A DNA stretch of 64,000 nt. Source: Lachnospiraceae bacterium. GTDB taxonomy: Bacteria; Bacillota; Clostridia; Lachnospirales; Lachnospiraceae. The DNA lies in NCBI GenBank assembly GCA_910575005.1, contig CAJTCL010000001.1, forward strand, positions 186,001 to 250,000, read 5' to 3'. Every line of letters begins with the position of its first letter. Position 1 is the first letter of the stretch. Below the pieces are notes generated by a model that was not told the DNA's origin, ran no database searches, and saw only the letters and a program-made list of their open reading frames with translations. The position numbers and the translations under genes were made by a program. Positions 40,868-58,495 of the stretch are shown here, piece by piece.

Positions 40868-40896
40868 ATTATATCCAATGCTTATTGACATGGCAA
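40868..40896 (-). promoter_or_regulatory. SigA-type promoter of the coiled-coil gene
   Basis: TTGCCA (40891-40896) and TATAAT (40868-40873) are separated by 17 bp, about 60 bp upstream of the ATG. Confidence 0.75.
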
Positions 40897-40991: not shown

Positions 40992-41128
40992 GGGAACAAA
41001 GAATCCTGCAAAGCAGGATTCCCCGCTTGCGGCGGGTCGCTTTTGCGACATATTTCATTTCCGCTGCAATGTGATCATTGTTTTTTATCTTATGGGAAAT
41101 CCAGAGGAATTTCCCATAAGATAAAAAA
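40992..41128. repeat. Structured ~137-bp interspersed repeat, copy A
   Basis: Hairpins in order: GAATCCTGC-AAA-GCAGGATTC (41001-41021), CCCGC/GCGGG (41022-41036), GTCGC-TTTT-GCGAC (41036-41049), CAATG/CATTG (41067-41080), and a perfect 20-bp inverted repeat (41081-41100 with 41109-41128) around the loop CCAGAGGA. The near-identical copy B is at 57417-57549. Confidence 0.85.
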
Positions 41129-41151
41129 AGAGACTGTCAAACGACAGCCCC
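41123..41151 (-). terminator. Intrinsic terminator of hydG
   Basis: On the minus strand GGGGCTGTC (41143-41151) pairs with GACAGTCTC (41130-41138) using two G-U pairs, followed by seven T residues (41123-41129). Those T residues are also the outer end of repeat copy A. Confidence 0.75.
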
Positions 41152-41228
41152 TCTCTATCACAAATCACTTATTTTTTAATCTCTGACAAAAACCATTTCT
41201 TACAGAAGAATATCAACGGATGGATGCT

Positions 41229-42647
41229 TTAAAACCGAAAATCACGCTCTCCTTTATGGATATTGGCAAGATAATCAACCACCTTCTCCTTTACTTTTGA
41301 ATTGGTAATCACATCCAATTCCTTGTCAATCAAAGCCTCTCCTACTTTCTTAGTCTCTTCCGAGGCATAATCCTCCAGGTATTCTTTTAAGGTCATCAAT
41401 GCATTGGGATGACAGCAATTTACAATCTGCCCACTCTTTAAAAGAAACATAAAACGGTCTCCCGTTCTTCCTTCTCGGTAACAGGCTGTGCAAAAACTTG
41501 GCACATATCCCATCTCCATCAACCACTTTACCACCTCATCCAACGTACGATTGTCACTGACGTCAAACTGTGCAGAATTTTCTTCCTCTGGTTCTGGTTC
41601 AACATAGCCGCCGACACTGGTTCTGGACGCCCCGCTGATCTGTGAAATCCCCAGATGCAGAACTTTCTCTCGACAGGCCTTGCTCTCCCTGGTGGAGACA
41701 ATCATCCCTGTATAGGGCACGGCAATCCGAATGCAAGCGACAATCTTCGCAAAAATTTCATCGGAAATACCATTGTCAAACACATCTGGATCAATATCAT
41801 CTGCCCGACGCAGACGGGGCACACTGATGGTATGGGGGCCAACGCCTTTATACGCCTCTAGGTGCTCTGCATGCATTAAAATCCCAATAAAATCATACTG
41901 ATAATTATTCAGCCCAAATAATACGCCCAGACCCACATCATCAATTCCGCCATCCATCGCACGGTCCATTGCCTCAGTATGGTAGGCATAATCATGTTTG
42001 GGGCCAGTGGGATGTAATTTTTCATAGGATTCCTTATGATATGTCTCCTGAAATAAAATGTAAGTGCCAATGCCTGCCTCTTTTAATTTCTGGTAATTCT
42101 CCACAGTAGTTGCGGCAATATTTACATTAACACGACGAATAGCGCCGTTCTTATGTTTAATGCTGTAAATCGTTTTGATACATTCCAAAATATATTCAAT
42201 CGGATTATTTACCGGATCTTCGCCGGCCTCCAATGCCAGACGCTTATGGCCCATATCCTGAAGCGCCATTACCTCTTTTACAATCTCCTCCTGTGTCAGT
42301 TTCTTTCTGGCAATATGCTTATTCTTGGCATGATAGGGACAGTATTCACAACCATTGATACAATAATTAGATAAATACAAAGGTGCAAACATCACGATGC
42401 GGTTGCCATAAAAATCCTTCTTGATCTGTTCTGCCAATGCATAAATTTCTTGATTTTTATCCTCCAGTTCACAATCTAAAAGCACTGCTGCTTCACGATG
42501 TGAAAGCCCTTTACGCTCTCTGGCCTTTGTAAGAATCTGATCAATCAAAGCTCGGTTATTTTTATTTTCCTTTGCAAATGCCAAAGATTCCACAATCTCC
42601 TCATGACTGATAAACTCTTCCGCTTTTGGTGACATTACTTGATACAT
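41229..42647 (-). CDS. hydG: [FeFe]-hydrogenase maturase HydG (radical SAM tyrosine lyase)
   Basis: HydG cleaves tyrosine to make the CO and CN ligands of the hydrogenase H-cluster. The 472-residue protein has the radical-SAM motif in SNYCINGCEYCPYH (CxxxCxxC, about 95-108) and the HydG-specific C-terminal second cluster CTACYREG plus a later cysteine in IVNCCHPNA. The length is standard. It lies 50 bp after hydE in the same direction, and both are probably cotranscribed. HydF and the hydrogenase itself are not in the window. Confidence 0.95.
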   Translation of the reverse strand: MYQVMSPKAEEFISHEEIVESLAFAKENKNNRALIDQILTKARERKGLSHREAAVLLDCELEDKNQEIYALAEQIKKDFYGNRIVMFAPLYLSNYCINGCEYCPYHAKNKHIARKKLTQEEIVKEVMALQDMGHKRLALEAGEDPVNNPIEYILECIKTIYSIKHKNGAIRRVNVNIAATTVENYQKLKEAGIGTYILFQETYHKESYEKLHPTGPKHDYAYHTEAMDRAMDGGIDDVGLGVLFGLNNYQYDFIGILMHAEHLEAYKGVGPHTISVPRLRRADDIDPDVFDNGISDEIFAKIVACIRIAVPYTGMIVSTRESKACREKVLHLGISQISGASRTSVGGYVEPEPEEENSAQFDVSDNRTLDEVVKWLMEMGYVPSFCTACYREGRTGDRFMFLLKSGQIVNCCHPNALMTLKEYLEDYASEETKKVGEALIDKELDVITNSKVKEKVVDYLANIHKGERDFRF

Positions 42648-42697
42648 TTTTCTCCTCCTTATAATTGCTGTATTTTAACAGGAAATACATTCTACGA

Positions 42698-43753
42698 TTA
42701 GCAACGCATTTTGATCGGGGAATCGCCTCTGTCAACCACTAATTGATAGCCAATGCTCTCCATCCTGCGATTCAGACACATACGGCATTCTGCCGCCTCA
42801 TCTCCAGTGCAAATTTTATTGTCGTATAGTTGATATTTCGCGCGCACAGAACTTGGGGATAAATTAGGCATCACTACATTTGCCCCTGCCAAAATCCCTT
42901 GTTCTCTCCCTTGTGGATCTATGGTTCCCAGAGCTGTGGTAGCTGGCAGCAAAAGCTCCGGCAGCATAATCCGCAAAAGCCCAATCATAAATAATGTTAG
43001 TTCTACCGTCCCTCCAGATTCCTTTGCAAAAGGCGTATCATGATGGGGCACAAAGGGACCAATGCCAACCATATGCGGCTGAAGTTCACGGATAAATAAC
43101 ATATCTTGCGCCAAATGCGCGGCTGTCTGCCCTGGGCTGCCCACCATAAACCCTGTACCTGTCTGGTAGCCGATTTCTTTTAAATCCCAAAGGCATTGCT
43201 GACGATGTTTGGCTGACAATTCTTTCGGATGCAGACTTTGATAATGTGTGGAATCAGCCGTCTCATGCCGCAGCAGATAACGGTCAGCTCCAGCTTCATA
43301 CAAGCCCTGATAGCTCTCTTTTGACCGCTCCCCTAGCGACAGCGTAATGGCACAATCTGGATAACTCCTTTTGATCGCATGAACAATCTCTTCTAGCTTT
43401 TGCTGTGTAAACCAACCATCTTCCCCACCCTGAAGCACAAAGGTACGAAATCCCAATTTATATCCTGTCTCACAACATTCCATGATCTGTTCTTTGGTCA
43501 AGCGGTAACGCTTTGCACTCTGGCTGCTTCTGCGGATGCCGCAATAAAAACAATCATTTTTACAATAGTTTGTAAATTCAATCAGTCCTCTGGTATAGAT
43601 TCGATTGCCAAAATATTTCTGTTGCCAGTTCCTTGCCTTAGCAAACAGATACTGGGCAGTATCATCGTTGCGGTTTTCAATCAGATCAATCCATTCCTCT
43701 TTGGTTAGCCTCGATGTGGTTTCCAATTTATCAATCAACTGCTTTGGCTGCAT
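42698..43753 (-). CDS. hydE: [FeFe]-hydrogenase maturase HydE (radical SAM)
   Basis: HydE acts in building the H-cluster, probably on the dithiomethylamine/iron precursor. The ~350-residue protein carries the radical-SAM motif FTNYCKNDCFYCGIRRSS (about 65-75) and the C-terminal CTGDEAAECRMCLNRR, an auxiliary-cluster-type cysteine group. The start is ambiguous: the ATG at 43753 is preceded by GAGG at a long distance, while GTG/TTG at 43762/43765 are a bit too close to it. I use the ATG. It precedes hydG. Confidence 0.92.
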   Translation of the reverse strand: MQPKQLIDKLETTSRLTKEEWIDLIENRNDDTAQYLFAKARNWQQKYFGNRIYTRGLIEFTNYCKNDCFYCGIRRSSQSAKRYRLTKEQIMECCETGYKLGFRTFVLQGGEDGWFTQQKLEEIVHAIKRSYPDCAITLSLGERSKESYQGLYEAGADRYLLRHETADSTHYQSLHPKELSAKHRQQCLWDLKEIGYQTGTGFMVGSPGQTAAHLAQDMLFIRELQPHMVGIGPFVPHHDTPFAKESGGTVELTLFMIGLLRIMLPELLLPATTALGTIDPQGREQGILAGANVVMPNLSPSSVRAKYQLYDNKICTGDEAAECRMCLNRRMESIGYQLVVDRGDSPIKMRC

Positions 43754-43910
43754 AATTTGCACCAAACCTCAAGCAAAAATACCTGCATTTTCATTTGAGG
43801 CGCAAACACAATGGGTAAAAATATGTGTTTGCATTTTATCCTTTCTTGTTTTTTCTTTGACCCTTTCTGCTATATCAGCACACTAAGACATTCTTGAATA
43901 AATACATAAT

Positions 43911-43942
43911 AATTTAAAATCCCTGTACCAAAAGGTACAGGG
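43911..43942 (-). terminator. Terminator-like hairpin between the 5'-nucleotidase and hydE
   Basis: CCCTGTACC (43921-43929) and GGTACAGGG (43934-43942) form a perfect 9-bp stem with an AAAA loop on the plus strand; on the minus strand it is followed by ATTTTAAATT. It may end the 5'-nucleotidase transcript or a leader/ncRNA ahead of hydE. Confidence 0.6.
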
Positions 43943-44006
43943 ACAGCCGAAAGAGTGATCCCATTGTCTCTTGCGTTTACAATAATTTCAATGAGAACAC
44001 TTTATA

Positions 44007-44118
44007 TACTATGAATGCTGCACCGTTCCTTTCAGGATCGCCTTGTGGTCTGGTCTGCTAAATTTTATCAGGTTTACAGTCAGAAATTCTTCCTGCGCAC
44101 CTGCTCTTATTCATAGTA
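44007..44118 (-). ncRNA. Candidate structured RNA, 112 nt, closed by a 10-bp perfect stem
   Basis: TACTATGAAT (44007-44016) and ATTCATAGTA (44109-44118) are perfect inverse copies. Read on the minus strand the inside includes TCTGACTG/CAGACCAGA and TCC/GGA pairing possibilities. No known RNA family was recognised: the SRP RNA tetraloop core and riboswitch boxes I know are absent. A terminator-like hairpin follows about 65 bp downstream. Confidence 0.35.
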
Positions 44119-44137
44119 ACATGATTTTTTGAAAAAT

Positions 44138-46075
44138 TCAATGCCTGCGCTTTTTGATTTTTACAATCACCAATGCCGCCAAGAGAATCAAAATAACGAA
44201 TAAAATTGATACGATACTAAAAATCGTCCTGGCGATCTGATTGGGATTGACAAACACAGCCAACGCGCTATTGTCATTGTCAATAATTTTCCGGTTATGG
44301 GTTGTATGGTAATAGTCTGGTATCTCAGATTTTCCTTCTGTCTTTGGAAAAGATTCCAAATATTTGGCCAAAGATGCCCAAGCCTTTAATTCCTGTCCAT
44401 CCACGTGAATAATATGATTTTCCAACTCTTGTTGGGAAATCTCCCTGCCCTCTGCATCTCTGGGTACTATTGATAAAATACCATAAGACTGTTCCTCCAC
44501 AGCGCCAAGCATCTGGCCAGTATATAAATCGGCAATCACTCGATAGAGTTTGGTATCTTCAAGCTCCTCTGTTTTTCCATCCACGTCCTGAAGATGTACG
44601 TTTGTAACCTTATTTAAAATCAACCGACTGGGATTGATCGTATAAGATAACCCGCTGCTATAGAGCTGTGCCGTGGTCATCATCGGAGAGATGGAGGCAT
44701 CCACTTCCGCCATCGTTTTGACATCTGCTCCAGTAAGATAGACACTGACCAAGGGATATCCTGGCACGCCATCCGCTCCAATTCCCAGGGATAAAATCTG
44801 AAAAGCATCCGAAACAGTAATCTCTGTTTCCTTGTGCAAGGTATCACGAATACAGCCGCTGGGCACAACTGCGATATCCGCTGGTTTTTGTTCCCCTGTA
44901 TCGCTATTGTTCACTGCATATAGATAGGCATCTGCGAGAAGATTTCCCAAAGGTTCCTCCTGCAAAATTTCCCCAAGGCCATTGATTTTCGTAAATTCCC
45001 AGGGATTATAGGCCAGCACTTGATCTTTGCTATAGCCAAACTGTGAGAGGTATTCCTGATCAATCGTTGTCCCCAGCTTAGCAATTTTGTCCACTGTTTC
45101 CTGATCACTGTCATAGCTTTCATCCAGAAGTGTGAGCTGATAATCTTCCAGTTTCCAGCGGCCGTTGTCCTTCTGGCACATGGTAAGAGAACCGATACGG
45201 GCGCCATATTCTCCAGTGGAGACAATAGCTGTCTCCCCATGAATAATTGGCTGTTCTAAAATACTATGAGTATGGCCACTGATAATCAAATCAAGCTGCG
45301 GCACTGCTTTTGCCAGCAATTCATCCTCTGACTTTTTCTCGTCCTCCCAGGTCCCACTGTGAGAAATACAGACAATCATGTCCGCTTGTTCCTGTTCTTG
45401 AATCGTCTTTACTGTCTGTTTGACCGCCTCCACTGGTTCCTGAAATATCAAGGCACAAGTTGGTGCACACTCTAGTGAATCTTTGCCAAATACACCAATC
45501 ACTGCGACATTGAGATCACCTTTTTCCAACATAATATAAGGCTTTACACCATAAGAATCAAAGGCTTTTTGCAATAATGCTCCTTCTTTTGCCTTTTCTC
45601 CTTTTAAAGTCTGCTCCCAATCCACATTGCACACCACCAATGGTGGAATGCGCTCCTTGCTCTCCTGCGCTGATGCCAACATATGAGCCAACCCGCTGCT
45701 TCTGTAATCAAACTCATGGTTTCCAAATGTAGCAGCATCCACTCCCAGATACCCTAACATCCTAAGTTCTGCAGCCTGTGTCTCAAATACGGTCTGATAC
45801 AGCGTTCCCATAGAAAAATCTCCGCCATCTAGAAATAATAAATTTTCTTCCTCTGCCCGCTGTTGTTTCAGATAAGTCATCATCCGTGCAAATCCGCCAA
45901 CGCTCTTTTCTTCGCCATTCTCCTCCAGATAAAATGGTTCCAGATGCGAGTGAAGGTCATGTGTAAATACTACTTTTAATTCTCTATTTTCCTTTGCAGA
46001 TACCCACATTCCCGGCAGCACCAAAAACACTAGAACGAACAATAGCATTTTCCATATTTTAACTGTTTTTTTCAT
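44138..46075 (-). CDS. 5'-nucleotidase/UshA-family metallophosphoesterase, surface-anchored
   Basis: The start at 46075 (MKKTVKIW) has an AAGGGGTG site, giving 645 residues. A signal peptide (KKTVKIWKMLLFVLVFLVLPG-type, cleaved after VSA) leads to a calcineurin-like metallophosphoesterase domain with HDLHSHLEP, GGDFSMG, GNHEFD, SGHTHSI; then the UshA-type 5'-nucleotidase C-terminal domain; then a C-terminal membrane helix (about 620-640) with a basic tail. It is expected to hydrolyse extracellular nucleotides or sugar-nucleotides. The gene lies 30 bp after the DUF362 ferredoxin gene. Confidence 0.88.
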   Translation of the reverse strand: MKKTVKIWKMLLFVLVFLVLPGMWVSAKENRELKVVFTHDLHSHLEPFYLEENGEEKSVGGFARMMTYLKQQRAEEENLLFLDGGDFSMGTLYQTVFETQAAELRMLGYLGVDAATFGNHEFDYRSSGLAHMLASAQESKERIPPLVVCNVDWEQTLKGEKAKEGALLQKAFDSYGVKPYIMLEKGDLNVAVIGVFGKDSLECAPTCALIFQEPVEAVKQTVKTIQEQEQADMIVCISHSGTWEDEKKSEDELLAKAVPQLDLIISGHTHSILEQPIIHGETAIVSTGEYGARIGSLTMCQKDNGRWKLEDYQLTLLDESYDSDQETVDKIAKLGTTIDQEYLSQFGYSKDQVLAYNPWEFTKINGLGEILQEEPLGNLLADAYLYAVNNSDTGEQKPADIAVVPSGCIRDTLHKETEITVSDAFQILSLGIGADGVPGYPLVSVYLTGADVKTMAEVDASISPMMTTAQLYSSGLSYTINPSRLILNKVTNVHLQDVDGKTEELEDTKLYRVIADLYTGQMLGAVEEQSYGILSIVPRDAEGREISQQELENHIIHVDGQELKAWASLAKYLESFPKTEGKSEIPDYYHTTHNRKIIDNDNSALAVFVNPNQIARTIFSIVSILFVILILLAALVIVKIKKRRH

Positions 46076-46104
46076 GAAACACCCCTTCCTGGACAAGCTT
46101 TTTC

Positions 46105-47220
46105 TTAAATCTCAATCAATTCATACTCCTGGCTGCCAATGCCGATTTTTTGGGCATGTTCCACACAGGATTTCCAGTTGGTATCAGGATGCACCATATG
46201 AAAGCAATCCTGATGATCTTCGTGATGGCTGTGTCCATCTTCACATATCACACTTCCAGCAATCAACGGCTGGCGATTGCAGGCGTCAGCACAGGCCACA
46301 TCCAGCGCCACCGGATCAAAAGAGGCAAACATTCCCACATCGGGAATAATTGGGATATCATTCTCTGCATGGCAGTCACAATTAGGAGAAACATCACAGA
46401 CAATGGAAATATGAAAATGCGGACGGTCATTCAGTACCGCTTTGCTGTACTCTGCCATTTTATAATTAAGTATATCGCTCGAATCCCCAAAGGATGGCTC
46501 TATCGCATCTTTGGGACAGACACCGATGCAGCGTCCACAGCCAGCACATTTCTCATGATTGATGGAAGCCTTCTTGTCAGTAACGGTAACTCCTTGATGG
46601 GCACATACCTTAGTACACATCTTACAGCCAATACAGTTCTCTTGATTTACATATGGTTTTCCTTCACTGTGCATCTCCATCTTTCCAGCTCTAGAACCAC
46701 ATCCCATGCCGATATTTTTTAGTGCTCCTCCAAACCCAGCCATCTCATGTCCTTTAAAATGATTGAGAGATATAAACACATCTGCATCCATCACAGCCCT
46801 GCCAATCTTTGCCTCCTTTATGTATTCGCCATTGACAGGAACCAACTCTTCGTCTGTACCTTTTAATCCATCTGCAATAATCACATGGCAACCAGTAGAA
46901 AATGGAGTAAAGCCGTTCTCATAAGCTGTGTCCAAATGATCAAGAGCATTCTTTCTGCTTCCAACATACAAAGTATTGCAGTCTGTCAGAAATGCTTTTC
47001 CTCCAAGCTCCTTCACCACATCTACAACTACCTTCGCATAATTTGGCCGCAGGAATGCAAGATTTCCTAGCTCGCCAAAGTGAATCTTAATCGCTGCATA
47101 TTTGTCAGTAAAATCAATATCCTTAATTCCCGCTGTCACAATCAGACGCTTCAATTTTGCTGGAATATTCTCTGTGTAAGATGTTTTAAATGTAGTAAAA
47201 TATACCTTTGATTTTTCCAT
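46105..47220 (-). CDS. DUF362 protein with a two-[4Fe-4S] ferredoxin domain
   Basis: The true start is the ATG at 47220 (371 residues), preceded by AAAGGAG; the longer frame would overlap the -10 box at 47282-47287. The N-terminal ~190 residues form a DUF362-like domain (SLNHFKGHEMAGFGGALKNIGMG). Two [4Fe-4S] motifs follow: CIGCKMCTKVC and CAGCGRCIGVC (about 190-250). The C-terminal part (CDCHAENDIPI, DPVALDVACADACNR) completes the family. It likely transfers electrons in an unknown cytosolic reaction. Confidence 0.88.
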   Translation of the reverse strand: MEKSKVYFTTFKTSYTENIPAKLKRLIVTAGIKDIDFTDKYAAIKIHFGELGNLAFLRPNYAKVVVDVVKELGGKAFLTDCNTLYVGSRKNALDHLDTAYENGFTPFSTGCHVIIADGLKGTDEELVPVNGEYIKEAKIGRAVMDADVFISLNHFKGHEMAGFGGALKNIGMGCGSRAGKMEMHSEGKPYVNQENCIGCKMCTKVCAHQGVTVTDKKASINHEKCAGCGRCIGVCPKDAIEPSFGDSSDILNYKMAEYSKAVLNDRPHFHISIVCDVSPNCDCHAENDIPIIPDVGMFASFDPVALDVACADACNRQPLIAGSVICEDGHSHHEDHQDCFHMVHPDTNWKSCVEHAQKIGIGSQEYELIEI

Positions 47221-47658
47221 ATTAAATGCTCCTTTTCTCTCCGCTTCATCTAGGGGAATACTTCCCCTGTATCTAAAATCCATTATAACAGATTTACAGA
47301 ATTTAATAACGATTTTTTTACCATTTCTTCACAATTTCTTTTGAATTCTTTATGTTTCTTTTAGAAAATGTCCACACTTTGCACACATTTATATCTTATA
47401 CTTGATTTATCAAATGAAGTTGATGACTTACATAAAGCGCGCACCGTTGGTTATCAGCTTCGACTAACAACAATCTAGCTTTACAATTGGTAAAGTAGTT
47501 TACATATATGTGGCGGTGCCACCGCCCAAGATGTGGCACCCCATGAAACATTTCATAAATTTACTCCCCCAAAAGCGTTGCCGCAAGGCAGCGCTTTCCT
47601 TCCGTTTACCAACCTATATTTCTTGTTTTTAGTCTTCTCTCCCGTTTACCATTGGCTC
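47221..47658. other. Intergenic region with several hairpins
   Basis: The gap holds the DUF362 gene's extended -10 promoter (47282-47290), GGTGCCAC/GTGGCACC (47515-47522 with 47533-47540), ATGAAA-CA-TTTCAT (47542-47555), and AAAGCGTTGCC-GCAA-GGCAGCGCTTT (47572-47597, one G-U). The last may end the amidohydrolase transcript. No gene was found. Confidence 0.55.
47282..47290 (-). promoter_or_regulatory. Extended -10 promoter of the DUF362 gene
   Basis: On the minus strand TGTTATAAT fits an extended -10 box, about 62 bp before the start at 47220. It shows that the longer frame beginning at 47283 is not the true gene start. Confidence 0.6.
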
Positions 47659-48600
47659 TCAATCATGTCTGGCATACGTCACTCTGCCGTCAATCAGCAC
47701 ATATTTAATTTTCGTATCCGAAATCATAGGATTGCCAGCAGCAATTACAAAATCTGCATCCTTGCCAATTTCTAGTGAACCTACTCGCGCCTCTACACCA
47801 ATATGTTTGGCCGCATGGATTGTAATTGCCCGCAGTGCCTCAAACGCATCCATACCAGAATTGACTGCCAGGCCAGCACAGAGCGCAAGATACTGCTGTG
47901 GAATCACTGGGGAATCTGTGATAATAGATACTTGACAGCCCGCCCGTGCCAAATCCCCTGGTGTAGCAAAGCTCTTGTTCTTTAGCTCAAATTTCGTAGC
48001 ATGTCCCAATAAAGGGCCTACGGCAAGCGGATAGCCTTCCTTTGCCAAATCATCTGCAATCAGAGAACCATCGGTACAGTGATCTAACTGCAGTGCAGTA
48101 TCAAATTCCTTAGCAATGCGAATTGCAGTATAGATATCATTGGCTTGATGTACATGTGCTTTTAACGGCATCTCGCCACGAATTACCGGAATCAATGCTT
48201 CCAGTTTTGGATCATAGGGTGGACGTTTTAGTATATCTTCCCCTGCCGCGACACAAGTCACTCCTCCTTCCATAGCCAAACGAATACTTTCATCCTGAGG
48301 GTTAATACCGTCTACCGCTGATAATTCTGGTGTCAAGGAATCTGTAACCTCATTGTAATCTGCCCCTTCAAATCCAATCCCATATCCGTCCAATCCCAAA
48401 TGACAGTGTGCTTCCACAAAACCAGGATAAACCTGCAGTCCTTTGACATCCAAAAGTTTTGTCTGATCTATCATCTCTGCGTCCAAAGTTGGGGCAATCT
48501 TCCTAATCTTTCCACCTTCGACCAGAATGTCTGCCAGGTATGGCTCTCTATGAACCGCATCATGAACTAGTCCCTGCCTGATCATCAGCCTCTCTTCCAT
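47659..48600 (-). CDS. Imidazolonepropionase-like amidohydrolase with an apparent internal shortening
   Basis: The ATG at 48600 follows AGGAGG closely (313 residues). The metal-site residues of the amidohydrolase fold are present: HCH in EAHCHLGLD, H in AHVHQANDI, H in LDHCTDG and D in ITDSPVIP. Compared with the family members I recall (about 380 residues), there is no segment between GGVTCVAAG and KLEALIPVIRGE, where about 60-70 residues are expected; the frame is intact. Substrate is unknown; the C-terminal IEIGKDADFVI-like signature is normal. Confidence 0.75.
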   Translation of the reverse strand: MEERLMIRQGLVHDAVHREPYLADILVEGGKIRKIAPTLDAEMIDQTKLLDVKGLQVYPGFVEAHCHLGLDGYGIGFEGADYNEVTDSLTPELSAVDGINPQDESIRLAMEGGVTCVAAGEDILKRPPYDPKLEALIPVIRGEMPLKAHVHQANDIYTAIRIAKEFDTALQLDHCTDGSLIADDLAKEGYPLAVGPLLGHATKFELKNKSFATPGDLARAGCQVSIITDSPVIPQQYLALCAGLAVNSGMDAFEALRAITIHAAKHIGVEARVGSLEIGKDADFVIAAGNPMISDTKIKYVLIDGRVTYARHD

Positions 48601-48663
48601 TTTGTGCCTCCTTCCTGCCAATAGTATGGCACAAAATAGAATTTATAATTCTTTTGAAAGGTA

Positions 48664-48700
48664 AAAGGGAAACAACCTCTGTAACGAAGCGTCTCCCTTT
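48664..48700 (-). terminator. Possible terminator of the GH31 gene
   Basis: AAAGGGA (48694-48700 read on minus) pairs with TCCCTTT (48664-48670), with a loose loop; a short T run follows. It lies 19 bp beyond the GH31 stop. Confidence 0.4.
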
Positions 48701-48718
48701 GTCTGTTATCTCTATACT

Positions 48719-50701: not shown

Positions 50702-50718
50702 TTTTCACCAATCCCTTT

Positions 50719-51567
50719 CTATCCTTTTACTGCACCGCTGGTCATACCACTAATGATATATTTCTGCATAAAAATGAAAATTAATGTAACTGGTATAATT
50801 GTCACCACAGCAAAAGCGGTCAAGTAACTCCATTTCGTTCCATACTGGCCCATAAAGTTAAAAATTCCTGCAGTAATCGGCCGCTTCTGCTGGTCAATGA
50901 TAAAGGTCATGCCATAGGCTAAATCTCCCCATGCATACAGGAAAGAGAAGATAGCACATACCATTACGCCTGGCTTTGCCACTGGAATTAATACCCGAAC
51001 AAATGCTGTAAAACGGTTGCATCCATCAATATATGCCGCCTCTTCCAACTCTTTTGGAATAGAGGCAAAATAATTTTTCAGTATTAAAATAGAAAATGGT
51101 ATTCCAATGGTCGCATCTGCAATAATAGCTGCGATCGGCGTATTATAGACATGCATTCCTTTAAACATCATAAACATCGGAGTCAACAGTACTGCCACTG
51201 GCAGCATCTGTGTGACCAAAAATCCTAAAAGCATCATTCCACGCCCTTTAAATTTATATTTTGCAATGCCATAAGAAGCCGGAACTGCCAAGACTACCGC
51301 GATCACCATCGCTCCCATAGAAATGATGAAACTATTAAAAAATGAATGGAACATATTAAAATCGCCATTTTCCACCTGAGCCGCATAGGAATTTAAGTTT
51401 AACTGTTCTGGAATGATCGTCGGTGGAATACGAAAAATTTCCTGCTCTGTTTTCAGAGATGTCACAACAATCCAAAATACCGGAAACAGCAGGACACATA
51501 AAATTACCACAGCCAGCACCGATAATGCCACATTTTTACCGCCACGAATTGTCTTTTCTTCACCCAT
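50719..51567 (-). CDS. Sugar ABC transporter permease, MalG type
   Basis: The ATG at 51567 overlaps the stop of the upstream permease by one base and follows GGAGGATGAGG, giving 282 residues. Six membrane helices and the CUT1 permease signature EEAAYIDGCNRFTAFVRVLIPVAKPG (EAA loop contacting the ATPase) identify it. It forms the translocation pore with the upstream MalF-type permease. The ATPase is not in this window; CUT1 systems often use a shared one. Confidence 0.9.
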   Translation of the reverse strand: MGEEKTIRGGKNVALSVLAVVILCVLLFPVFWIVVTSLKTEQEIFRIPPTIIPEQLNLNSYAAQVENGDFNMFHSFFNSFIISMGAMVIAVVLAVPASYGIAKYKFKGRGMMLLGFLVTQMLPVAVLLTPMFMMFKGMHVYNTPIAAIIADATIGIPFSILILKNYFASIPKELEEAAYIDGCNRFTAFVRVLIPVAKPGVMVCAIFSFLYAWGDLAYGMTFIIDQQKRPITAGIFNFMGQYGTKWSYLTAFAVVTIIPVTLIFIFMQKYIISGMTSGAVKG

Positions 51568-52469
51568 CAATCCTCATCCTCCTTTGTCGCTTTTAGATAA
51601 AATACGCCTACAATCATTAAGATCACCAACAGGATATTGGCAACTGCCGAACCTTTGCTGTACTTAAACATTTCAAAAGAAAGCTTATAAGAATACGTTG
51701 ATAACATATGAGTGGAATTTACCGGCCCGCCTCCTGTCATCACATACACAAGGTCAAACACCTTAAAGGTGTAGATAAATCCAAGAATCAGCACTGACTC
51801 TATCGTCGGCCGCAATAAGGGAAGCGTAATCTTAAAAAACGTCTGTACCTTTCCTGCCCCATCGATGGAAGCACTCTCATACAATTCTTTGGGAATTGTG
51901 GTCAGCCCTGTAGAAATCAAAATCATATTAAAGGGAATTCCAATCCAGACATTGGCACAGACGATAGCAAACAGCGCCGTATTCGTCGAAGTCAGCCAAT
52001 CAATATTTTCTGAGATAATGCCCAGGCTGTTTAGTATGTAATTCAAAATTCCCACATCTGTACCAAAAATAAACTTGAAAATCAATGCTGTAACTGTAAT
52101 CGGAATCATCCAGGGAATCAACATCAGTCCGCGAATAGGTTTGGAAACACTGAAATGTTGACTAAAAAACAATGCCAGCAAAAATCCTATGATAAACTGC
52201 AAAATAAGGCAGCATACCGTAAAAAGCAATGTATTGACCAATGATCTGATAAATACAGGATCCTGGAAAATATCTATATAGTTTTGAAGCCCTGCAAATG
52301 GTTTATGGTCTGCTGTCAAAGTTCTCACCGTAACATCCTGAAAACTCAAGATAATATTTCTCACAATGGGATAACCGACAAACACAAGCATATAGAGAAA
52401 TGCTGGCAGCACAAATAATATTCCTACGTTATCAAACTTAAAAAATTTCTTCTTTTTCGCCTGATTCAT
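51567..52469 (-). CDS. Sugar ABC transporter permease, MalF type
   Basis: The 300-residue membrane protein has six helices and the CUT1 EAA loop ELYESASIDGAGKVQTFFKITLPLLRPTI. It pairs with the MalG-type permease downstream. It follows the binding-protein gene after a strong hairpin (52494-52528), which probably lowers permease expression relative to binding protein. Confidence 0.9.
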   Translation of the reverse strand: MNQAKKKKFFKFDNVGILFVLPAFLYMLVFVGYPIVRNIILSFQDVTVRTLTADHKPFAGLQNYIDIFQDPVFIRSLVNTLLFTVCCLILQFIIGFLLALFFSQHFSVSKPIRGLMLIPWMIPITVTALIFKFIFGTDVGILNYILNSLGIISENIDWLTSTNTALFAIVCANVWIGIPFNMILISTGLTTIPKELYESASIDGAGKVQTFFKITLPLLRPTIESVLILGFIYTFKVFDLVYVMTGGGPVNSTHMLSTYSYKLSFEMFKYSKGSAVANILLVILMIVGVFYLKATKEDED

Positions 52470-52493
52470 ACGTTTTCCTCCTTAATTTTGGGA

Positions 52494-52528
52494 ACAAAAA
52501 GGGAGTATACGGAAGATCCGCATACTCC
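52494..52528 (-). terminator. Intercistronic hairpin between binding-protein and permease genes
   Basis: On the minus strand GGAGTATGCGGA pairs with TCCGTATACTCC (one G-U), loop TCT, followed by CTTTTTG. Such partial terminators are known between binding-protein and permease genes (as in malE-malF). Confidence 0.75.
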
Positions 52529-52542
52529 GCACCTCAGATTGC

Positions 52543-53868
52543 CTATTTAGTTACAATCCCATCAATGACCTGCTGGGCAGCATCCGCCGCTTCCTGGGGC
52601 TGTTTTTCGCCGGTCATCACCTGGTTAAATGCAAGAGAAATAGCATCTGACACCTCTGGCCACTCCGCAAGAGGCCCTCTTGCCTTGGCATACTCTAACT
52701 GCTTGGTAAAGCTTTTCATTTCCTCATCGTCGGCAAATTGTCCCTCTGCAATGGCCTTATCTGCGGAGGTATAGCCAAGAGCGCCCATCAGATATTCTAC
52801 CTGCTCTTTGGCTGTCGCATATTCGAGGAATTTCAAAGCGCCTTCCTCATTGCCTCCTGAAATCACTGCATAGTTTTCTCCGCCAAGCGCAGAGGCATAT
52901 TCTTTGTCTTGCGGAATCAAGGCAACTTTCCAGTTCAAATCAGGCGCTTCCTCCCTCATAGCAGCAATCTGCCACGGTCCATTGATCATCATCGCCACAT
53001 TGCCAGAGATAAACTGATTCATGACGTCTCTTTGTGTCCAGTTGATACACTCTTTACTCATAGCCCCAGATTCAATCAATTCCTTTACTAAGGTCAAGGC
53101 TTTTACGCCTCCCTCAGAGTTAATCTCATAGGCACCTGCCCCTGTAGACCATACCCAAGGCATAAAATTGAAGGTTCCCTCCTCATTCTGAAGGCTGCAG
53201 AATGCAAAACCTGTCACTTTATCCTTAGTAAGTTTTACGGCTGTCTCTTTTAACTCCTCCCAGTTTGTAGGCGCTTTGCAGCCAGCCGCATCCAGTAAAT
53301 CCTGATTATAATACAAACCCAGACAATTTACCCCAAAAGGTACGCCATATAAGGTTCCGTCAATCGTACAGGAATCCACAGCTCCCTGATAATAATTTGA
53401 GACATCAAACTTTCCTGATAAATCTGCAAAAATTCCCATTGTTGCATAAGAAGCATGATCTGGAGAATCTAAAATTGCAATATCTGGCAGCTCATCCGCA
53501 GAAGCACCAATAGATAACTGCTTCTTAAAATCTGCAAATGGCACATACTTTGCACTGACTGTAATGTCGCTCTGAGAAGCATTATAATCACTGATCACCT
53601 TATCAAGTGCTTTCTGATGACCTTCTGTCTCCCAGTAATACCAAATCGTTACTTCCTGGCCGCCGCCAGATGAAGATTCATTTGAACCATTGTTTGACGC
53701 TTCCCCTTGCGCATCCTGTTTTTGATTCGCTCCTGCATTTTCACTGGATGCTGTACTCTCGCCCTGATCTGTCTTTTGGTCATTTTCTGCATTTTTTCCA
53801 CAGCCTGCCAGCAATCCAACGCTTAACACCACTGCCATAAACACAGACGCCACCTTCTTCAATTTCAT
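52543..53868 (-). CDS. Sugar-binding lipoprotein of a CUT1 ABC transporter
   Basis: The 441-residue protein has a lipobox LSVGLLAGC (about 14-22), an N-terminal Ser/Asn/Gln-rich linker (about 25-70), and then the periplasmic-binding-type fold with YYWETEGHQKALDKVISDYN and GPWQIAAMREEAPDL. It captures a sugar outside the cell. The gene has its own promoter (53908-53937) and follows the YesN-like regulator gene. The sugar is unknown; the downstream GH31 suggests an alpha-linked oligosaccharide. Confidence 0.92.
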   Translation of the reverse strand: MKLKKVASVFMAVVLSVGLLAGCGKNAENDQKTDQGESTASSENAGANQKQDAQGEASNNGSNESSSGGGQEVTIWYYWETEGHQKALDKVISDYNASQSDITVSAKYVPFADFKKQLSIGASADELPDIAILDSPDHASYATMGIFADLSGKFDVSNYYQGAVDSCTIDGTLYGVPFGVNCLGLYYNQDLLDAAGCKAPTNWEELKETAVKLTKDKVTGFAFCSLQNEEGTFNFMPWVWSTGAGAYEINSEGGVKALTLVKELIESGAMSKECINWTQRDVMNQFISGNVAMMINGPWQIAAMREEAPDLNWKVALIPQDKEYASALGGENYAVISGGNEEGALKFLEYATAKEQVEYLMGALGYTSADKAIAEGQFADDEEMKSFTKQLEYAKARGPLAEWPEVSDAISLAFNQVMTGEKQPQEAADAAQQVIDGIVTK

Positions 53869-53907
53869 AATCGTTCCTCCTCTTTTCTTTTTGTAACATC
53901 AGTTTAC

Positions 53908-53937
53908 CTTATAAAAACATCTTAGAAAACAGGACAA
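53908..53937 (-). promoter_or_regulatory. SigA-like promoter of the sugar-binding protein gene
   Basis: TTGTCC (53932-53937) and TATAAG (53908-53913) are separated by 18 bp, about 40 bp before the ATG. The YesN-like regulator is the likely activator. Confidence 0.55.
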
Positions 53938-53963
53938 TTATTTAAAAGGTAGAGGATTCTAAA

Positions 53964-55499
53964 CTACTTATGTGTTTTTCGATATTCCGCCGGAGAATAT
54001 CCGGTTGATTCCCGAAACACTTTGCCAAAATATTTACTGTCCGTATATCCTACCTGCAAGGCAATCTCATATTGCTTCATCTGAGTTCCTACCAAAAGCT
54101 CTTTTGCCTTATTAACTCGATAATTTTTCAGATAACTGCTGTAGGTTTCTCCAACCTCTTTGTGAAACTGCATACTCAAATATTCTGGTGTCACGTTAAG
54201 CTTCAGCGCAATCTCATCCAGTGTAATTCCAGATTGATAAAATTCATGAATCATGCTCTTCATACGCCTTACCGTCAAGTGAGCGATTCCATCCTCCAAA
54301 TCTCTAGGGCCGATCTGTGCAAACAATTCTTGCAATATGGATTCCAATTCCCAAAATAGTTTCGCTCTCATTATTCTGTCAAGAATTTCCTGCTGGTTGA
54401 GACTTTCGTAATCGAGCATATTGATTTCCTTGGTGATATTGATCACAGCCCAAGTAAATCTGACATAACATTCCTTGATATCCTTTGGTGTATACAATTT
54501 CTCACAGGAAAAATAGTTTAAAAAACTTTGGATAATTCTTTGCGCCTGTTCCATATTTCCCAAACACAATTCTGCTTTCAGCCGGTTTTCCATCTCTATG
54601 GGATAGATACAGACCCCTGTCTGTACCTGTAAAATTTTCGGGTATGCAATCAACACATCCTGACCCAAAGTCAAGGACCAATCCATATACTGGCAGAGCG
54701 TATCAAACGCATCTTTCAAACCATTCATTCCCTGAGCCAATATCCAACCCACGGCTGCTAACTCCATGTTAGCTGCATGCTGAAGCATCCAGCACTGAAT
54801 CCTGCGCTCTAACTCTCGAATATCATGAAACTGATAAATGGCAATCACCAGAGATTGTTCGTAATCAGCTTTAATCACACAAAACTGCAAATCGCCATTC
54901 ACGCTCAATAGATTTTCCCACTCACGTTGAATACGGTCTGCTTTGTCTTTATAGAAGGTTCCAAGATAGATACATACCTCTGCAATCTCCTGCCTGGTCT
55001 GTATGCCATATTTTCCCAGAAGATATTCTTCCATATCCATATCAATATCTAATTTTGTCTGCCCATAGAGAACAGTCCCCATAATTTGTTCCAGTGTGCC
55101 AAGTGCCTGCGGTTGTACATTTTTTTCTTTTTCAATCTGCGTTTTTATAGTATTCAAAGCCTTAGAAAATTCATCCACAGATACAGGCTTTAGCAGATAT
55201 TCCGTAACCCCAAGTCTCATTGCCTGACGAGCATATTCAAACTCTGAATAGGCACTCAACACAATTGACTTTGTGGCAAGCCCAAGCTCCTGCATTTTCT
55301 GAAGCATTTCCAGACCGCTCATATCCGGCATACGGATATCCGTAATCACAATATCTGGCTGTTCCTTTTGTATCAATTCTAATCCGGCCTTTCCATTGGA
55401 TGCACTTCCTGCAAATTCATACTCTGGTCCCATCATCTCAAGCAGGCCCTCAATTCCTTCTCGAATCCTGATTTCATCTTCTACTACGACTACCTTCAT
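53964..55499 (-). CDS. YesN/AraC-type response regulator
   Basis: The 511-residue protein has an N-terminal receiver (VVVEDEIRIREG, DIVITDIRMPDMSG, KPVSVDEF), a ~250-residue middle region, and an AraC-type helix-turn-helix pair at the C-terminus (ITLDEIALKLNVTPEYLSMQFHKEVG, QVGYTDSKYFGKVF). It overlaps the upstream kinase by 4 bases, so they form a two-component pair that probably activates the sugar-uptake genes in response to the sugar or the extracellular signal. Confidence 0.92.
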   Translation of the reverse strand: MKVVVVEDEIRIREGIEGLLEMMGPEYEFAGSASNGKAGLELIQKEQPDIVITDIRMPDMSGLEMLQKMQELGLATKSIVLSAYSEFEYARQAMRLGVTEYLLKPVSVDEFSKALNTIKTQIEKEKNVQPQALGTLEQIMGTVLYGQTKLDIDMDMEEYLLGKYGIQTRQEIAEVCIYLGTFYKDKADRIQREWENLLSVNGDLQFCVIKADYEQSLVIAIYQFHDIRELERRIQCWMLQHAANMELAAVGWILAQGMNGLKDAFDTLCQYMDWSLTLGQDVLIAYPKILQVQTGVCIYPIEMENRLKAELCLGNMEQAQRIIQSFLNYFSCEKLYTPKDIKECYVRFTWAVINITKEINMLDYESLNQQEILDRIMRAKLFWELESILQELFAQIGPRDLEDGIAHLTVRRMKSMIHEFYQSGITLDEIALKLNVTPEYLSMQFHKEVGETYSSYLKNYRVNKAKELLVGTQMKQYEIALQVGYTDSKYFGKVFRESTGYSPAEYRKTHK

Positions 55500-57298
55500 A
55501 CAGTCTTCCTGCCTCCTTCTGAAGATACTGGCAGGGTAATATAGATTCTAGTGTACTGATGCTCTTGACTTTCTACTTGAATCTGTGCCTGTTCTTCATA
55601 ATATAACCGAATCCGGTACAATGCATTCTTAAGCCCAATTTGATTCTTATCTTCTGTCTCCTGAAAAATCCCTTGATTCATCTGTTCCGCCACGCTTTGG
55701 GGCATTCCGGTTCCATTATCCTCAATCACAATCTGTAATCTATCCGTTTTCCACATTTCCATTTTAATTTTTAACATTGGTTTTCTCTCAATGTTTTTGA
55801 ATCCATGCACAAAACTATTCTCCACAAAAGGCTGAATCAACAGTTTATGAACTTTGAGTTCCATAAGCTCTGGCGGTATCTCAATCGTACTTTCAAAGCC
55901 ATCCTTTAGCCTCGTCTGCTGCAAAAACAAGTATTGTTTCAACCACTCATATTCTTCCCGAATGGTAACAATCCCATTACTGTTATCAATCCCATAACGC
56001 AGTATGGTGGCCAATGCTGTAATCGCTCTGCTGATCTCAAATTCTTTTCTGCCAATGGCAATCCAGTTGATGGTATCTAGGGTATTATAGAGAAAATGGG
56101 GATTGAGCTGTGCTTCCAATGCCGTAATCTCTGCATCTTTCTTCTGCCGGTCTAACCGTTTTTCTGTCTCCACTGATTCTAAGAGACGATCCATCGTTGT
56201 ATTGTACTGATGAGCAATCACTTTCACTTCACTGGGCATTTTCCGATCAATTTCTACCCGTTCCTGGCGCCGTCCCTCTTCGGCGGACTGCATAATCCGC
56301 ACCACTGATTTGATAGAACCTGTCAATTCCCTGGTGAGAAATGCAATAATTACAATCAAAATAGCTACCGAAAAAGAAAAAATTGTAAAGGTAATTCCTT
56401 GCTGCTGTTTAATTTCATCCAAAACTTCATGCTGATTAGACACATTTACAATATCCCAATTTAACTTATCATCATGCACATAATCAATGGAGACACTATC
56501 TCGGTCAAAAATATTTTGTTGGATGGCAAAATCTCGATACTGCAGCTTTTTATCCTTTTCCCCATTGATCATTGCACTTCCCAGCAAATCTTTGTCTTTA
56601 TATGATACTAGTTTTCCTTCCTGATCTACAATAAAACTGTAGGCAACAGAATCTTGTCCATCCCCAGTACAAATATTGTGGAGCATCTGTTCATCAACAC
56701 TCATAATGATAATTCCAATATTTTCATTTCGTCTGTTATAATCCACAATTCTGTGTCCCAAATGGAAAAGAAAATTCCTCTCATTTAAAGATTCTTTCGC
56801 CTCACTGGTTGATATTACAAACATTTTATTTTCATCAATATATTTGTTGTAGAGTTGTTTCTGGTCAATCCCAAGATTAGGAATCCAGGAACTTCTGGTG
56901 ATGGAACCAGTGATAGAATCATAAAATACCAAGGTTCCATCCTCGGTGATGACAGAAAGATCCCTGATATAATCCTTGGCATAAAGATAAGCCCTCAGGA
57001 TTCTTCTCAAGTGGTTCTTGCTGACCACAAGATCCTCGCCGCGATTGATTTTGTTGATTAAATGTACTACATCATCATCAGAATAAATCTGAACCAAGAT
57101 ATCCTGATAAGATTCCACACTAATTTCCAATGTAGTCTTTGTACGGCTGAGATTGTATTTCATCAGCTTTTTATTGTTGTCATTTACAATATTCAAAATG
57201 TGATAGTACGAAAACATTGTAATCAAGAGAATGGGGATCATAGATATTCCCATAAAAGAGATCACTAATTTCATCCCCAAGCTTTTATGCCTGCCCAT
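55496..57298 (-). CDS. YesM-type sensor histidine kinase
   Basis: The start at 57298 (MGRHKSLGMKLV) follows GGGAGCAGG at good spacing; an earlier ATG at 57337 has none. The ~600-residue protein has a membrane helix near residue 20, a ~270-residue extracellular sensory domain, a second helix (about 320-340), a HAMP-like region, and a HisKA_7/HATPase core (LEAQLNPHFLYNTLDTINWI, later NGTGMP). It pairs with the YesN-like regulator. Signal presumably relates to the sugar-uptake genes downstream. Confidence 0.92.
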   Translation of the reverse strand: MGRHKSLGMKLVISFMGISMIPILLITMFSYYHILNIVNDNNKKLMKYNLSRTKTTLEISVESYQDILVQIYSDDDVVHLINKINRGEDLVVSKNHLRRILRAYLYAKDYIRDLSVITEDGTLVFYDSITGSITRSSWIPNLGIDQKQLYNKYIDENKMFVISTSEAKESLNERNFLFHLGHRIVDYNRRNENIGIIIMSVDEQMLHNICTGDGQDSVAYSFIVDQEGKLVSYKDKDLLGSAMINGEKDKKLQYRDFAIQQNIFDRDSVSIDYVHDDKLNWDIVNVSNQHEVLDEIKQQQGITFTIFSFSVAILIVIIAFLTRELTGSIKSVVRIMQSAEEGRRQERVEIDRKMPSEVKVIAHQYNTTMDRLLESVETEKRLDRQKKDAEITALEAQLNPHFLYNTLDTINWIAIGRKEFEISRAITALATILRYGIDNSNGIVTIREEYEWLKQYLFLQQTRLKDGFESTIEIPPELMELKVHKLLIQPFVENSFVHGFKNIERKPMLKIKMEMWKTDRLQIVIEDNGTGMPQSVAEQMNQGIFQETEDKNQIGLKNALYRIRLYYEEQAQIQVESQEHQYTRIYITLPVSSEGGRKTV

Positions 57299-57416
57299 AG
57301 CCTGCTCCCTTCTATTTTTAATAGCTTTTCTCCCCATTCTGAAAATTATAATCTTGTGTATTTATCTTCCCTATCTTTGCCCTACATTATAGTTGATTAT
57401 TTTTATTGTTTCAAGA

Positions 57417-57549
57417 GGGAACAAAGAATCCTGCTTTGCAGGATTCCCCGCCTGCGGCGGGTCGCTTTTGCGACATATTTCATTTCCGCTGCAGTGCGAT
57501 CATTGTTTTTTCTTATAGGAAATCCAGAGGAATTTCCTATAAGAAAAAA
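57417..57549. repeat. Structured ~133-bp interspersed repeat, copy B
   Basis: Same hairpin order as copy A at 40992-41128. The first hairpin has loop TTT instead of AAA. The last hairpin (57506-57523 with 57532-57549) has 18 perfect base pairs and an A-T pair where copy A has G-C. Its outer end is again the T-run of the neighbouring terminator. Confidence 0.85.
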
Positions 57550-57574
57550 TATGCAGGCTCCGTAAGGAACCTGC
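57544..57574 (-). terminator. Intrinsic terminator of the short flagellin gene
   Basis: On the minus strand GCAGGTTCC (57566-57574) pairs with GGAGCCTGC (57553-57561) with one G-U, loop TTAC, then ATATTTTTTC. The T-run is the outer end of repeat copy B. Confidence 0.8.
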
Positions 57575-57584
57575 ACACTCAGTC

Positions 57585-58367
57585 TTAAGAATTAAACCTC
57601 AAAAGCTGTACTACTCTTCCATTTTCTTCTTCTCGCTTCTTCTGCATCATAAGCCGGTATTCTTCCAATAAGTTATTCTTCTTCATATCTGATATCGCTT
57701 TTGGAAAATCAAGATCCTCAATACGGCTGCCTGCTGCTGTCGTGTTAAGTGATGCATAGGAATTATAATTCATCGTGTAATCCAAACGATTGGATGTAGC
57801 CCCCAACTCGCTTCTGGATGAAGAAACCTTATCTAATGCATTGTCAATGACAGATAAATCAAAATCTCCCGTGACATCAAAATCTTCAATTCCCAATGCT
57901 GCCAATGTGGAATCTGGCATATTGATCTCCATACCACTGCCATCTGGTCCAGATGCCACATGGGAAGTTCCCATCTTCCCATCCAACAGATTCATGGTAT
58001 TAAAGGTTGTGTTTTTAGCTGCATCAGAAATGGACTGTTTTAACTGGTCAATCTCCTGCTGCATAGCATTTCGCTCAGAATCGCCATAAATCGCGGTATT
58101 AGATGCCTGTACGCCCAATTCACGGATGCGCTGCAAGGAATCTGTAATCGTTGACAATCCTCCCTCTGCTACATTCACCATATCTTTGGATGTCGCTGCA
58201 TTGCGTCTGCCTACGTCATAACCATTTCTCTGTGTACGCAGTTTCTCGGCAATGGAAAGTCCTGCTGCATCATCCGCAGCCGAATTAATCCGTTTGCCAC
58301 TGGCAAGCTGACGATAATTTTGATATAAATTTCTTCTGCTGACATTACTGATACTAGAAATACTCAT
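57585..58367 (-). CDS. Short flagellin-like protein with an atypical C-terminus
   Basis: GGGAGG supports the ATG at 58367, giving 260 residues (MSISSISNVSRRNLYQ). The N-terminal helices are flagellin-like: SGKRINSAADDAAGLSIA, LQRIRELGVQASN. The C-terminal domain has the normal NRLDYTMN helix and SRIEDLDF, but the last ~30 residues are EEYRLMMQKKREEENGRVVQLLRF instead of the small, hydrophobic QAATSVLAQAN-type helix. It may be a minor or non-filament flagellin. Its promoter is at 58496-58524. Glycosyltransferase genes follow upstream in the same direction. Confidence 0.8.
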   Translation of the reverse strand: MSISSISNVSRRNLYQNYRQLASGKRINSAADDAAGLSIAEKLRTQRNGYDVGRRNAATSKDMVNVAEGGLSTITDSLQRIRELGVQASNTAIYGDSERNAMQQEIDQLKQSISDAAKNTTFNTMNLLDGKMGTSHVASGPDGSGMEINMPDSTLAALGIEDFDVTGDFDLSVIDNALDKVSSSRSELGATSNRLDYTMNYNSYASLNTTAAGSRIEDLDFPKAISDMKKNNLLEEYRLMMQKKREEENGRVVQLLRFNS

Positions 58368-58495
58368 AGATATACCTCCCTTCCTGAGTATTAGCATAAA
58401 ATTTAATGCTTCTTACTGATTGCTGTCTTTGATCTTTCGTCTGTTCCAGAAATCCCTTACAGCAATGCTATGCTATAAGACTTTCTTTCGTTCTT

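Follow-up and report, generated by a model that had tools for sequence, protein, structure and literature searches.

Three-hairpin repeats behind intrinsic terminators in Lachnospiraceae: a putative non-autonomous mobile element

The present study concerns a repeat of ~135 bp found twice in a 64,000-nucleotide stretch of DNA from a Lachnospiraceae bacterium (GenBank assembly GCA_910575005.1, contig CAJTCL010000001.1, positions 186,001 to 250,000; this whole stretch is referred to below as the window). On balance, the features of the repeat favor a non-autonomous mobile element that targets intrinsic terminators and would be moved in trans by a putative enzyme, probably one acting on single-stranded DNA. 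The two repeats, placed at 40992-41128 (copy A) and 57417-57549 (copy B) in a preliminary description of this DNA, are real, as the copy A query retrieves copy B with 92% identity (E 9.4e-50, blast). The reading offered there of a non-autonomous mobile repeat, similar to repetitive extragenic palindromes (REP), is well supported by dispersed copies, spread through the genus and the taxonomic family, empty counterparts, and chains of copies. Placement behind terminators was absent from that description and was seen in the present analysis.

A dispersed family located behind terminators

Both strands of copies A and B fold far beyond shuffled sequences (z -8.5 to -9.3). For the minus strand, the folding energies are -62.8 kcal/mol for copy A (z -8.7) and -61.7 kcal/mol for copy B (z -9.3), and none of 200 shuffles reached either value. 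The genes adjoining both copies lie on the minus strand. The minus strand is also the better reading of the repeats themselves (41128 to 40994 and 57549 to 57419), because the unit then begins in the terminator T-tract of the neighbouring minus-strand gene. In this direction, the order of parts is the T-tract, a near-perfect palindrome (H1), an A-tract, a linker, a branched stem with an inner hairpin (H2), a terminator-like hairpin (H3), and the 3' end, which is TTTGTTC in the window copies and often TTTCTTG or TTTTTTA elsewhere. The variants read span about 125 to 200 bp.

This position recurs throughout the family. A strong hairpin abutting the T-tract upstream was found at 47 of 68 congeneric copies and 18 of 27 copies from other genera, against 4 of 66 and 1 of 27, respectively, for the downstream flank used as a control; several copies scored as misses show hairpins with larger loops, since the scoring permitted short loops only. 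An upstream open reading frame (ORF) was present at 63 loci, and at 53 of them the nearest one shares the strand of the element. The underlying survey of 64 loci holds a few places twice (L001/L025, L007/L018, L013/L022, and L010/L024) as well as the orthologues L032/L033, and its simple ORF caller drew an ORF across the element in 12 of the 64. The position directly behind terminators is not due to chance.

The unit itself ends in a hairpin and a T-tract and thus offers a place for the next copy, so that chains can form. Copies were indeed found directly after the H3 of another copy, and also behind other elements. In a stricter count of 50 junctions, six follow the H3 of the element's own family and three the end of a sister family, and four of the other 41 look similar by eye. 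At the terminator upstream of a gene read as dapA, different versions of the element or of H1 are held by G000, G019, G027, and G024 (G, L, and C numbers are our handles for genomes, loci, and contigs), possible remnants of its first 20 bases are kept by G021 and G003, and G012 has none. This site (L003, L046, L178, L180, L169, L171, and L170) reflects either repeated occupation or an exchange of the body at one place; of the six additional loci compared, L179-L184, only L180 could be anchored.

The family proved far larger than the two copies described initially, both in the source genome and in its relatives. In the source genome, 51 blast rows merge to 36 places, some of them short or weak. 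Across 61 genomes, blast matched 29, namely, the source genome, 23 of 28 others of the same genus, and five of eight from other genera of the taxonomic family, and it matched none of the 24 from other families of the order. A covariance model (R1) was built from 33 copies (alignment A1, that is, 33 of 35 non-redundant copies chosen from the 51, with L008 and L050 left out), and of 120 genera of the taxonomic family searched with it, 53 contain the unit; the copy counts per genome in that search are lower bounds, as at most 27 candidates were scored per genome. Among 148 genomes drawn from the class, there were 11 with a match, including the source genome. Of the nine class-wide loci that were read, seven carry an H1-like palindrome (with a changed apex in L238) and are preceded by a hairpin and T-tract; six of these seven belong to other families, with a middle unrelated as far as the match shows, and the TTTGTTC end is present in four of the six. 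Locus L236 carries the same unit as the window element but is not preceded by an obvious terminator, and the match at L237 is probably due to chance. Two copies, L261 and L263, are 100% identical over 137 bp and have different flanks. No description of this element family was found in the open-licence literature.

Additionally, a copy with 78% identity lies at position 308-437 of the 243-kb plasmid NZ_CP135163.1 of Roseburia sp. 831b, which is a possible route between species. Full or partial copies also occur in ten unannotated phage records from human fecal samples (MT838488.1, MT839789.1, MT836217.1, MT836725.1, and six more), representing either real phage carriage or host DNA; an exact-pattern search of viral contigs gave no match. 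In G008, several copies lie at or near contig ends (C126, C46, C9, and C92), a position to be expected if a repeat with many copies interrupts the assembly, so true copy numbers may be higher.

Empty counterparts were read at two loci of G028. At L116, the filled site consists of TTTTTA, the element, and TAGTGG, and the counterparts are TTTTTA^TAGTG in G027, G013, and G022, TTTTTAGAGTGG in G012, and CTTTTATAGCGG in G008. At L117, the corresponding point in G024 holds no element, although the terminator hairpin there differs. There is no target duplication at either locus, and the element is precisely missing after the T-tract. These counterparts may not be strict orthologues, since the relatives are 79-90% identical over the matched flank and L116 lies within multi-copy sequence; the comparison at a third site, L106, yielded no clean empty counterpart. 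The ~200-bp stretch around L116, with the strong terminator GAATCCCCCGACTGTAATGGCGTACAGTCGGGGGATTC (also L142, L143, L146, and L174-L177), is itself present in several copies per genome and in several species of the genus.

The window copies and their variants

Copy A occupies 40994-41128 on the minus strand, from the T-tract to TTTGTTC, and scores 153.2 bits against R1 (model positions 1-135), being itself one of the 33 rows used to build the model. It starts in the T-tract of the intrinsic terminator (41125-41156, minus strand; 14 pairs followed by a T-run in a terminator scan) of an upstream gene with radical SAM and BATS domains (41229-42647). According to the fold and pair counts, H1 is a long palindrome at 41081-41128, including the target T-tract with the following A (41128-41122) and the complementary A-tract (41087-41081). 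The fold and alignment A1 place H2, with its outer stem and inner GTCGC/GCGAC hairpin, at 41027-41069, and the fold and pair counts place the terminator-like hairpin H3, GAATCCTGC/GCAGGATTC, at 41001-41021. The 3' end, TTTGTTC at 40994-41000, was set by the family alignment and the empty counterparts of other copies. Approximately 100 bp beyond copy A, before the next minus-strand gene (39733-40809), there is a promoter-like site at 40868-40896 on the minus strand, which is a consensus match only (11/12).

Copy B occupies 57419-57549 on the same strand; it was matched by R1 at 57551-57419 with 147.6 bits and is also a row of the model. It starts in the T-tract of the intrinsic terminator (57547-57580, minus strand; 15 pairs followed by a T-run) of an upstream flagellin gene (57585-58397). 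Its H1 palindrome (57506-57549) is two base pairs shorter than that of copy A, and it is followed by H2 (57452-57494, by fold and alignment) and by H3 with the 3' end TTTGTTC (57419-57446). A promoter-like site (57386-57414, minus strand; again 11/12 and a consensus match only) begins five positions past copy B, before a histidine kinase gene (55496-57337), so copy B fills the gap between the stop signal of one gene and the likely start signal of the next.

The paired G-C to A-T exchange in the terminal hairpin, the 2-bp insertion on both of its arms in copy A relative to copy B, and the loop flip between AAA and TTT, all reported initially, are present in the sequences. The CAATG/CATTG mini-hairpin reported with them is no conserved helix: the linker is variable across the 33 aligned copies, the other half is part of the H2 stem, and the small linker hairpin differs in most copies read from other genera. 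The absence of a convincing protein was confirmed; ORFs do overlap the copies, but the two on the plus strand (119 and 92 aa) match no Pfam family, and a coding reading was rejected.

The H2 stem, whose arms are ~25 nt apart, and the H1 apex are preserved across many genera, and the apex ATAGGAAA/TTTCCTAT is kept in several families of the class. Within the genus, some variants have an additional hairpin in the loop of H1, some contain ~78 bp of inserted sequence internally, and some have other H3 sequences. Moreover, sister families (L103, L070, L084, L248, and L255; G013, G024, and G008) have the H1 and the end type in common and other bodies; one ends in GGGCTTGCCCAC-TTTGTTC, another has GCGCAGCTCGCGGG and an H3 of the GAATGCGC type, and in this set copies of one sister family were found behind copies of another. 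In G000 (C17:3960-4988, L010), the H1 half and the H2-H3 half of the element, 0.9 kb apart, flank a 221-aa ORF. This ORF was considered as a transposase and rejected, as it belongs to the 4'-phosphopantetheinyl transferase superfamily; the half-elements are either chance neighbours of the gene, or the gene was caught inside the element.

Covariation, a proposed route of movement and its alternatives

The covariation was tested over many homologues and lies far above that of shuffled alignments. In A1, 94.3% of cells pair, with 59 two-sided changes against 18.2 in shuffles (none of 500 reaching this number) and at most 6 in slid structures; for H1 alone (19 copies, three from other families), there are 38 against 7.5. 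Pair statistics were taken from the first 66 of 116 matches in a model search given 65 loci, the other 50 (at most 45.9 bits) including many reverse-strand matches of the H1 palindrome and some neighbouring partial copies. One H1 pair in these 66 rows is UA in 36, CG in 17, GC in 7, and AU in 6, with neither G-U nor mismatch. By part, the share of G-U is 0.8% for H3, 1.4% for the outer stem of H2, 2.7% for its inner stem, 3.1% for H1 (where 23 of the 29 G-U pairs fall in a single apex pair), and 4.4% for the target run; these low figures are partly inheritance, because the rows are related. One hairpin finder applied to both gave 10.7% for the adjacent host terminators (777 pairs) and 1.3% for the element's H3 (842 pairs). 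Numerous double changes with few G-U intermediates are better explained by hairpins that act as DNA, or by one arm being repaired from its partner, than by selection on an RNA, and this nearly Watson-Crick-only covariation suggests the same. Homologues lacking covariation above chance, which would have refuted the preliminary description, were thus not what was found, but its claim of direct evidence for a selected fold is too strong where an RNA fold is meant, since the exchanges are almost all from one Watson-Crick pair to another.

It is possible, though we rather doubt it, that the compensatory changes say nothing about selection, the palindrome arms being corrected from each other during replication with structure as a by-product. 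The double changes with few G-U intermediates agree with this, as do L086, where the host-derived target T-tract has a matching partner in the element, and the H3 loops, among which AAA (29 of 69) and TTT (18 of 69) are both frequent. However, arm correction does not readily account for an H2 stem with distant arms and an H1 apex kept in so many genera, and loop types whose reverse complement also occurs are no more frequent than expected by chance (6 of 11 types; null mean 4.7, P 0.45), a result on which hairpin inversion was rejected as the source of the AAA/TTT flips. Furthermore, arm correction explains covariation, not dispersal, and is compatible with the mobile-element explanation.

At the junction, the last base of the target run and the first base of the A-tract form A-U in 31 of the 66 rows, C-G in 11, G-C in 8, G-U in 5, and U-A in 4, with at least four mismatches; at L116, the last target-run base is already present in most empty counterparts. 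An A-tract acting as a guide that reads the target would explain the junction covariation. Against such a guide, some chain junctions are mismatched, and at the other six target positions A is mostly retained in the A-tract even where the target differs, with a two-sided change at three only (5 cells in A1).

For the mobile element, the following route is proposed. A trans-acting enzyme would recognise, on one exposed DNA strand, the H1 palindrome with its apex ATAGGAAA/TTTCCTAT at the 5' end and H3 at the 3' end. The target T-tract and the terminal TTTNTTN would each be followed by a cut, and the single strand would be pasted behind another terminator in the peel-and-paste manner of IS200/IS605, with base pairing by the A-tract next to H1 as a possible means of reading the target T-tract.

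Several results weigh against this mobile-element reading. Clean empty counterparts are available at two loci only, one of them in multi-copy sequence, and at the place of window copy A, G027 keeps the terminator without the element and also without ~85 further bases. No movement was seen between near-identical strains, the checked flanks in G017/G028 being the same sites or contig breaks. The pairing between the A-tract and the target is mismatched in some chain junctions, so the junction covariation may be repair after insertion. Additionally, no mobilising gene was found: in profile searches of the genomes, none of Y1_Tnp, RVT_1, and Y2_Tnp follows the element. Y1_Tnp (PF01797) is present in 33 of 61 genomes, and ten of the 23 congeneric carriers have no match (G002, G007, G008, G009, G011, G017, G019, G021, G022, and G024), five of the ten being at least 95% complete. 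IS91-type Y2_Tnp occurs in 8 of 24 genomes, as a fragment only in G024, and is without a match in the other 16, element-rich ones included; the source genome has none. In G024, which is nearly complete and holds dozens of copies, neither Y1 nor reverse transcriptase was matched. The element profile, run over 31 Y1 and reverse transcriptase loci (23 of them Y1), gave one weak partial match only. An H1-only model gave at least 124 and at least 43 rows in two nearly complete genomes, with the palindrome counted on both strands, and it brought 24 loci, among which shared stretches were at most 214 bp; the 16 of these that were read include no version of the element with a gene. As none of the tested families follows the element, several carriers have lost the enzyme, or it belongs to a different kind, or the profiles missed it.

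An unlikely alternative is spread through RNA, in which a read-through transcript ending at H3 would be copied into a terminator T-tract by a reverse transcriptase of the group IIC intron type, much like a bacterial short interspersed element (SINE). Group IIC introns are described as inserting at intrinsic terminators (PMC4424553), the end of the element resembles a terminated transcript, duplication is absent at the two loci, and RVT_1 genes occur widely in the group (in 24 of 37 and in 16 of 18 genomes). Against this, there is no RVT_1 match in G024 (99% complete, 4 contigs), in G036 (20 covariance model matches), or in the carriers G002, G009, and G016 (92, 63, and 82% complete), and RVT_1 is present in G005, G006, G010, and G026, all without a blast match to the element. 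Nor do the scarce G-U pairs suggest an RNA fold, and Rfam gave no match in the window at gathering score, the matches at one copy being far below it.

An improbable alternative is a REP-type repeat moved by a Y1 transposase (RAYT/TnpA-REP or the TnpA of IS200/IS605) that was once present and has since been lost from several genomes. Hairpins at both ends and a possible guide-target pairing recall IS200/IS605 as described in PMC6006769 and PMC8266576, and Y1 genes do come and go, with seven matches in G028 and none in its close relative G017. The ten Y1-free congeneric carriers and the nearly unmatched surroundings of the 23 Y1 loci speak against this alternative, as does the A-tract, which stands 3' of the palindrome, whereas the guides described in these sources stand 5'.

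Finally, a functional RNA or 3' untranslated region module, boosting or stabilising the terminator and kept by selection at useful genes with incidental duplication, is very improbable, for although the frequent 3' position on the gene strand, the strong folding, and the terminator-like H3 would suit it, it is opposed by near-identical copies in different flanks (L261/L263), occupancy that varies between relatives, chains, and fewer G-U pairs than in host terminators, and the related initial reading as a structured noncoding RNA family has folding alone in its favour and no Rfam family at gathering score.

Interspersed palindromes of small size are nothing rare, but in this family the sequence itself shows that landing takes place behind a terminator, where the ends are, and that duplication is lacking. 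By inserting behind terminators, such an element would come to lie between operons and do little damage there. The enzyme that would mobilise it is missing despite numerous, partly identical copies, and the discovery of this enzyme could give a new single-strand or terminator-directed insertion reaction. The family also cautions against taking compensatory changes in palindromes as proof of a functional RNA.

Comparison with known systems

IS91-type elements have GTTC/CTTG in the target. This type was rejected for the present element, since Y2 is found in only 8 of 24 genomes and not in the source genome, and CTTG belongs to the element and not to the empty counterpart. A DDE-type miniature inverted-repeat transposable element, which has inverted repeats at its ends and duplicates its target site, was likewise rejected, as the empty counterparts show no duplication and the element's ends are two different hairpins. 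Among the short structured or interspersed repeats of Firmicutes, bcr1 (named as mobile), BOX, and RUP resemble the element in being short, structured, and interspersed, a likeness by description only; terminator targeting and self-chaining do not appear in the descriptions compared. The REP, BIME, and REPIN repeats associated with RAYT share with it the high copy number, the gene-less palindromes, and the mostly intergenic position. Unlike them, the element has a T-tract as the foot of H1, where no GTAG/GTGG foot was seen, forms a three-hairpin unit linked to terminators, and is accompanied by no consistent Y1 gene.

Group IIC introns insert without target duplication, and IS200/IS605 elements insert 3' of a short target, also without duplication. 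The element resembles the introns in inserting behind intrinsic terminators, with no duplication at two loci; in contrast to them, with their domain V ribozyme and class C reverse transcriptase, it is, at ~135 bp, too short for a reverse transcriptase gene, has no Rfam match showing a ribozyme, and occurs in two element-rich genomes without RVT_1 (G024 and G036). It resembles IS200/IS605, for which end hairpins and, 5' of each of them, guide tetranucleotides pairing with the cleavage site are described (PMC6006769, PMC8266576), in its hairpins at both ends, possible guide-target pairing, and clean insertion at the two loci. It differs in that its target is a terminator T-tract, the complementary tract lies 3' of H1, and tnpA is found neither inside the element nor consistently in carrier genomes; a past loss of Y1 is compatible with the latter.

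We would give little weight as yet to a more far-reaching conclusion, namely, that such repeats form a separate class of gene-less, hairpin-defined units which would home to intrinsic terminators by a single-strand reaction, carry their own next landing site, as in the chains, and be moved by a family of enzymes whose role as transposases has so far gone unrecognised. Such a class would span several bacterial families that have in common the apex of H1, a T-tract as target, and in many cases the TTTGTTC end, with the middle exchanged. While lacking one defining feature of each system, the element behaves like group IIC introns as regards where it inserts, and like IS200/IS605 as regards its terminal hairpins and its insertion without duplication.

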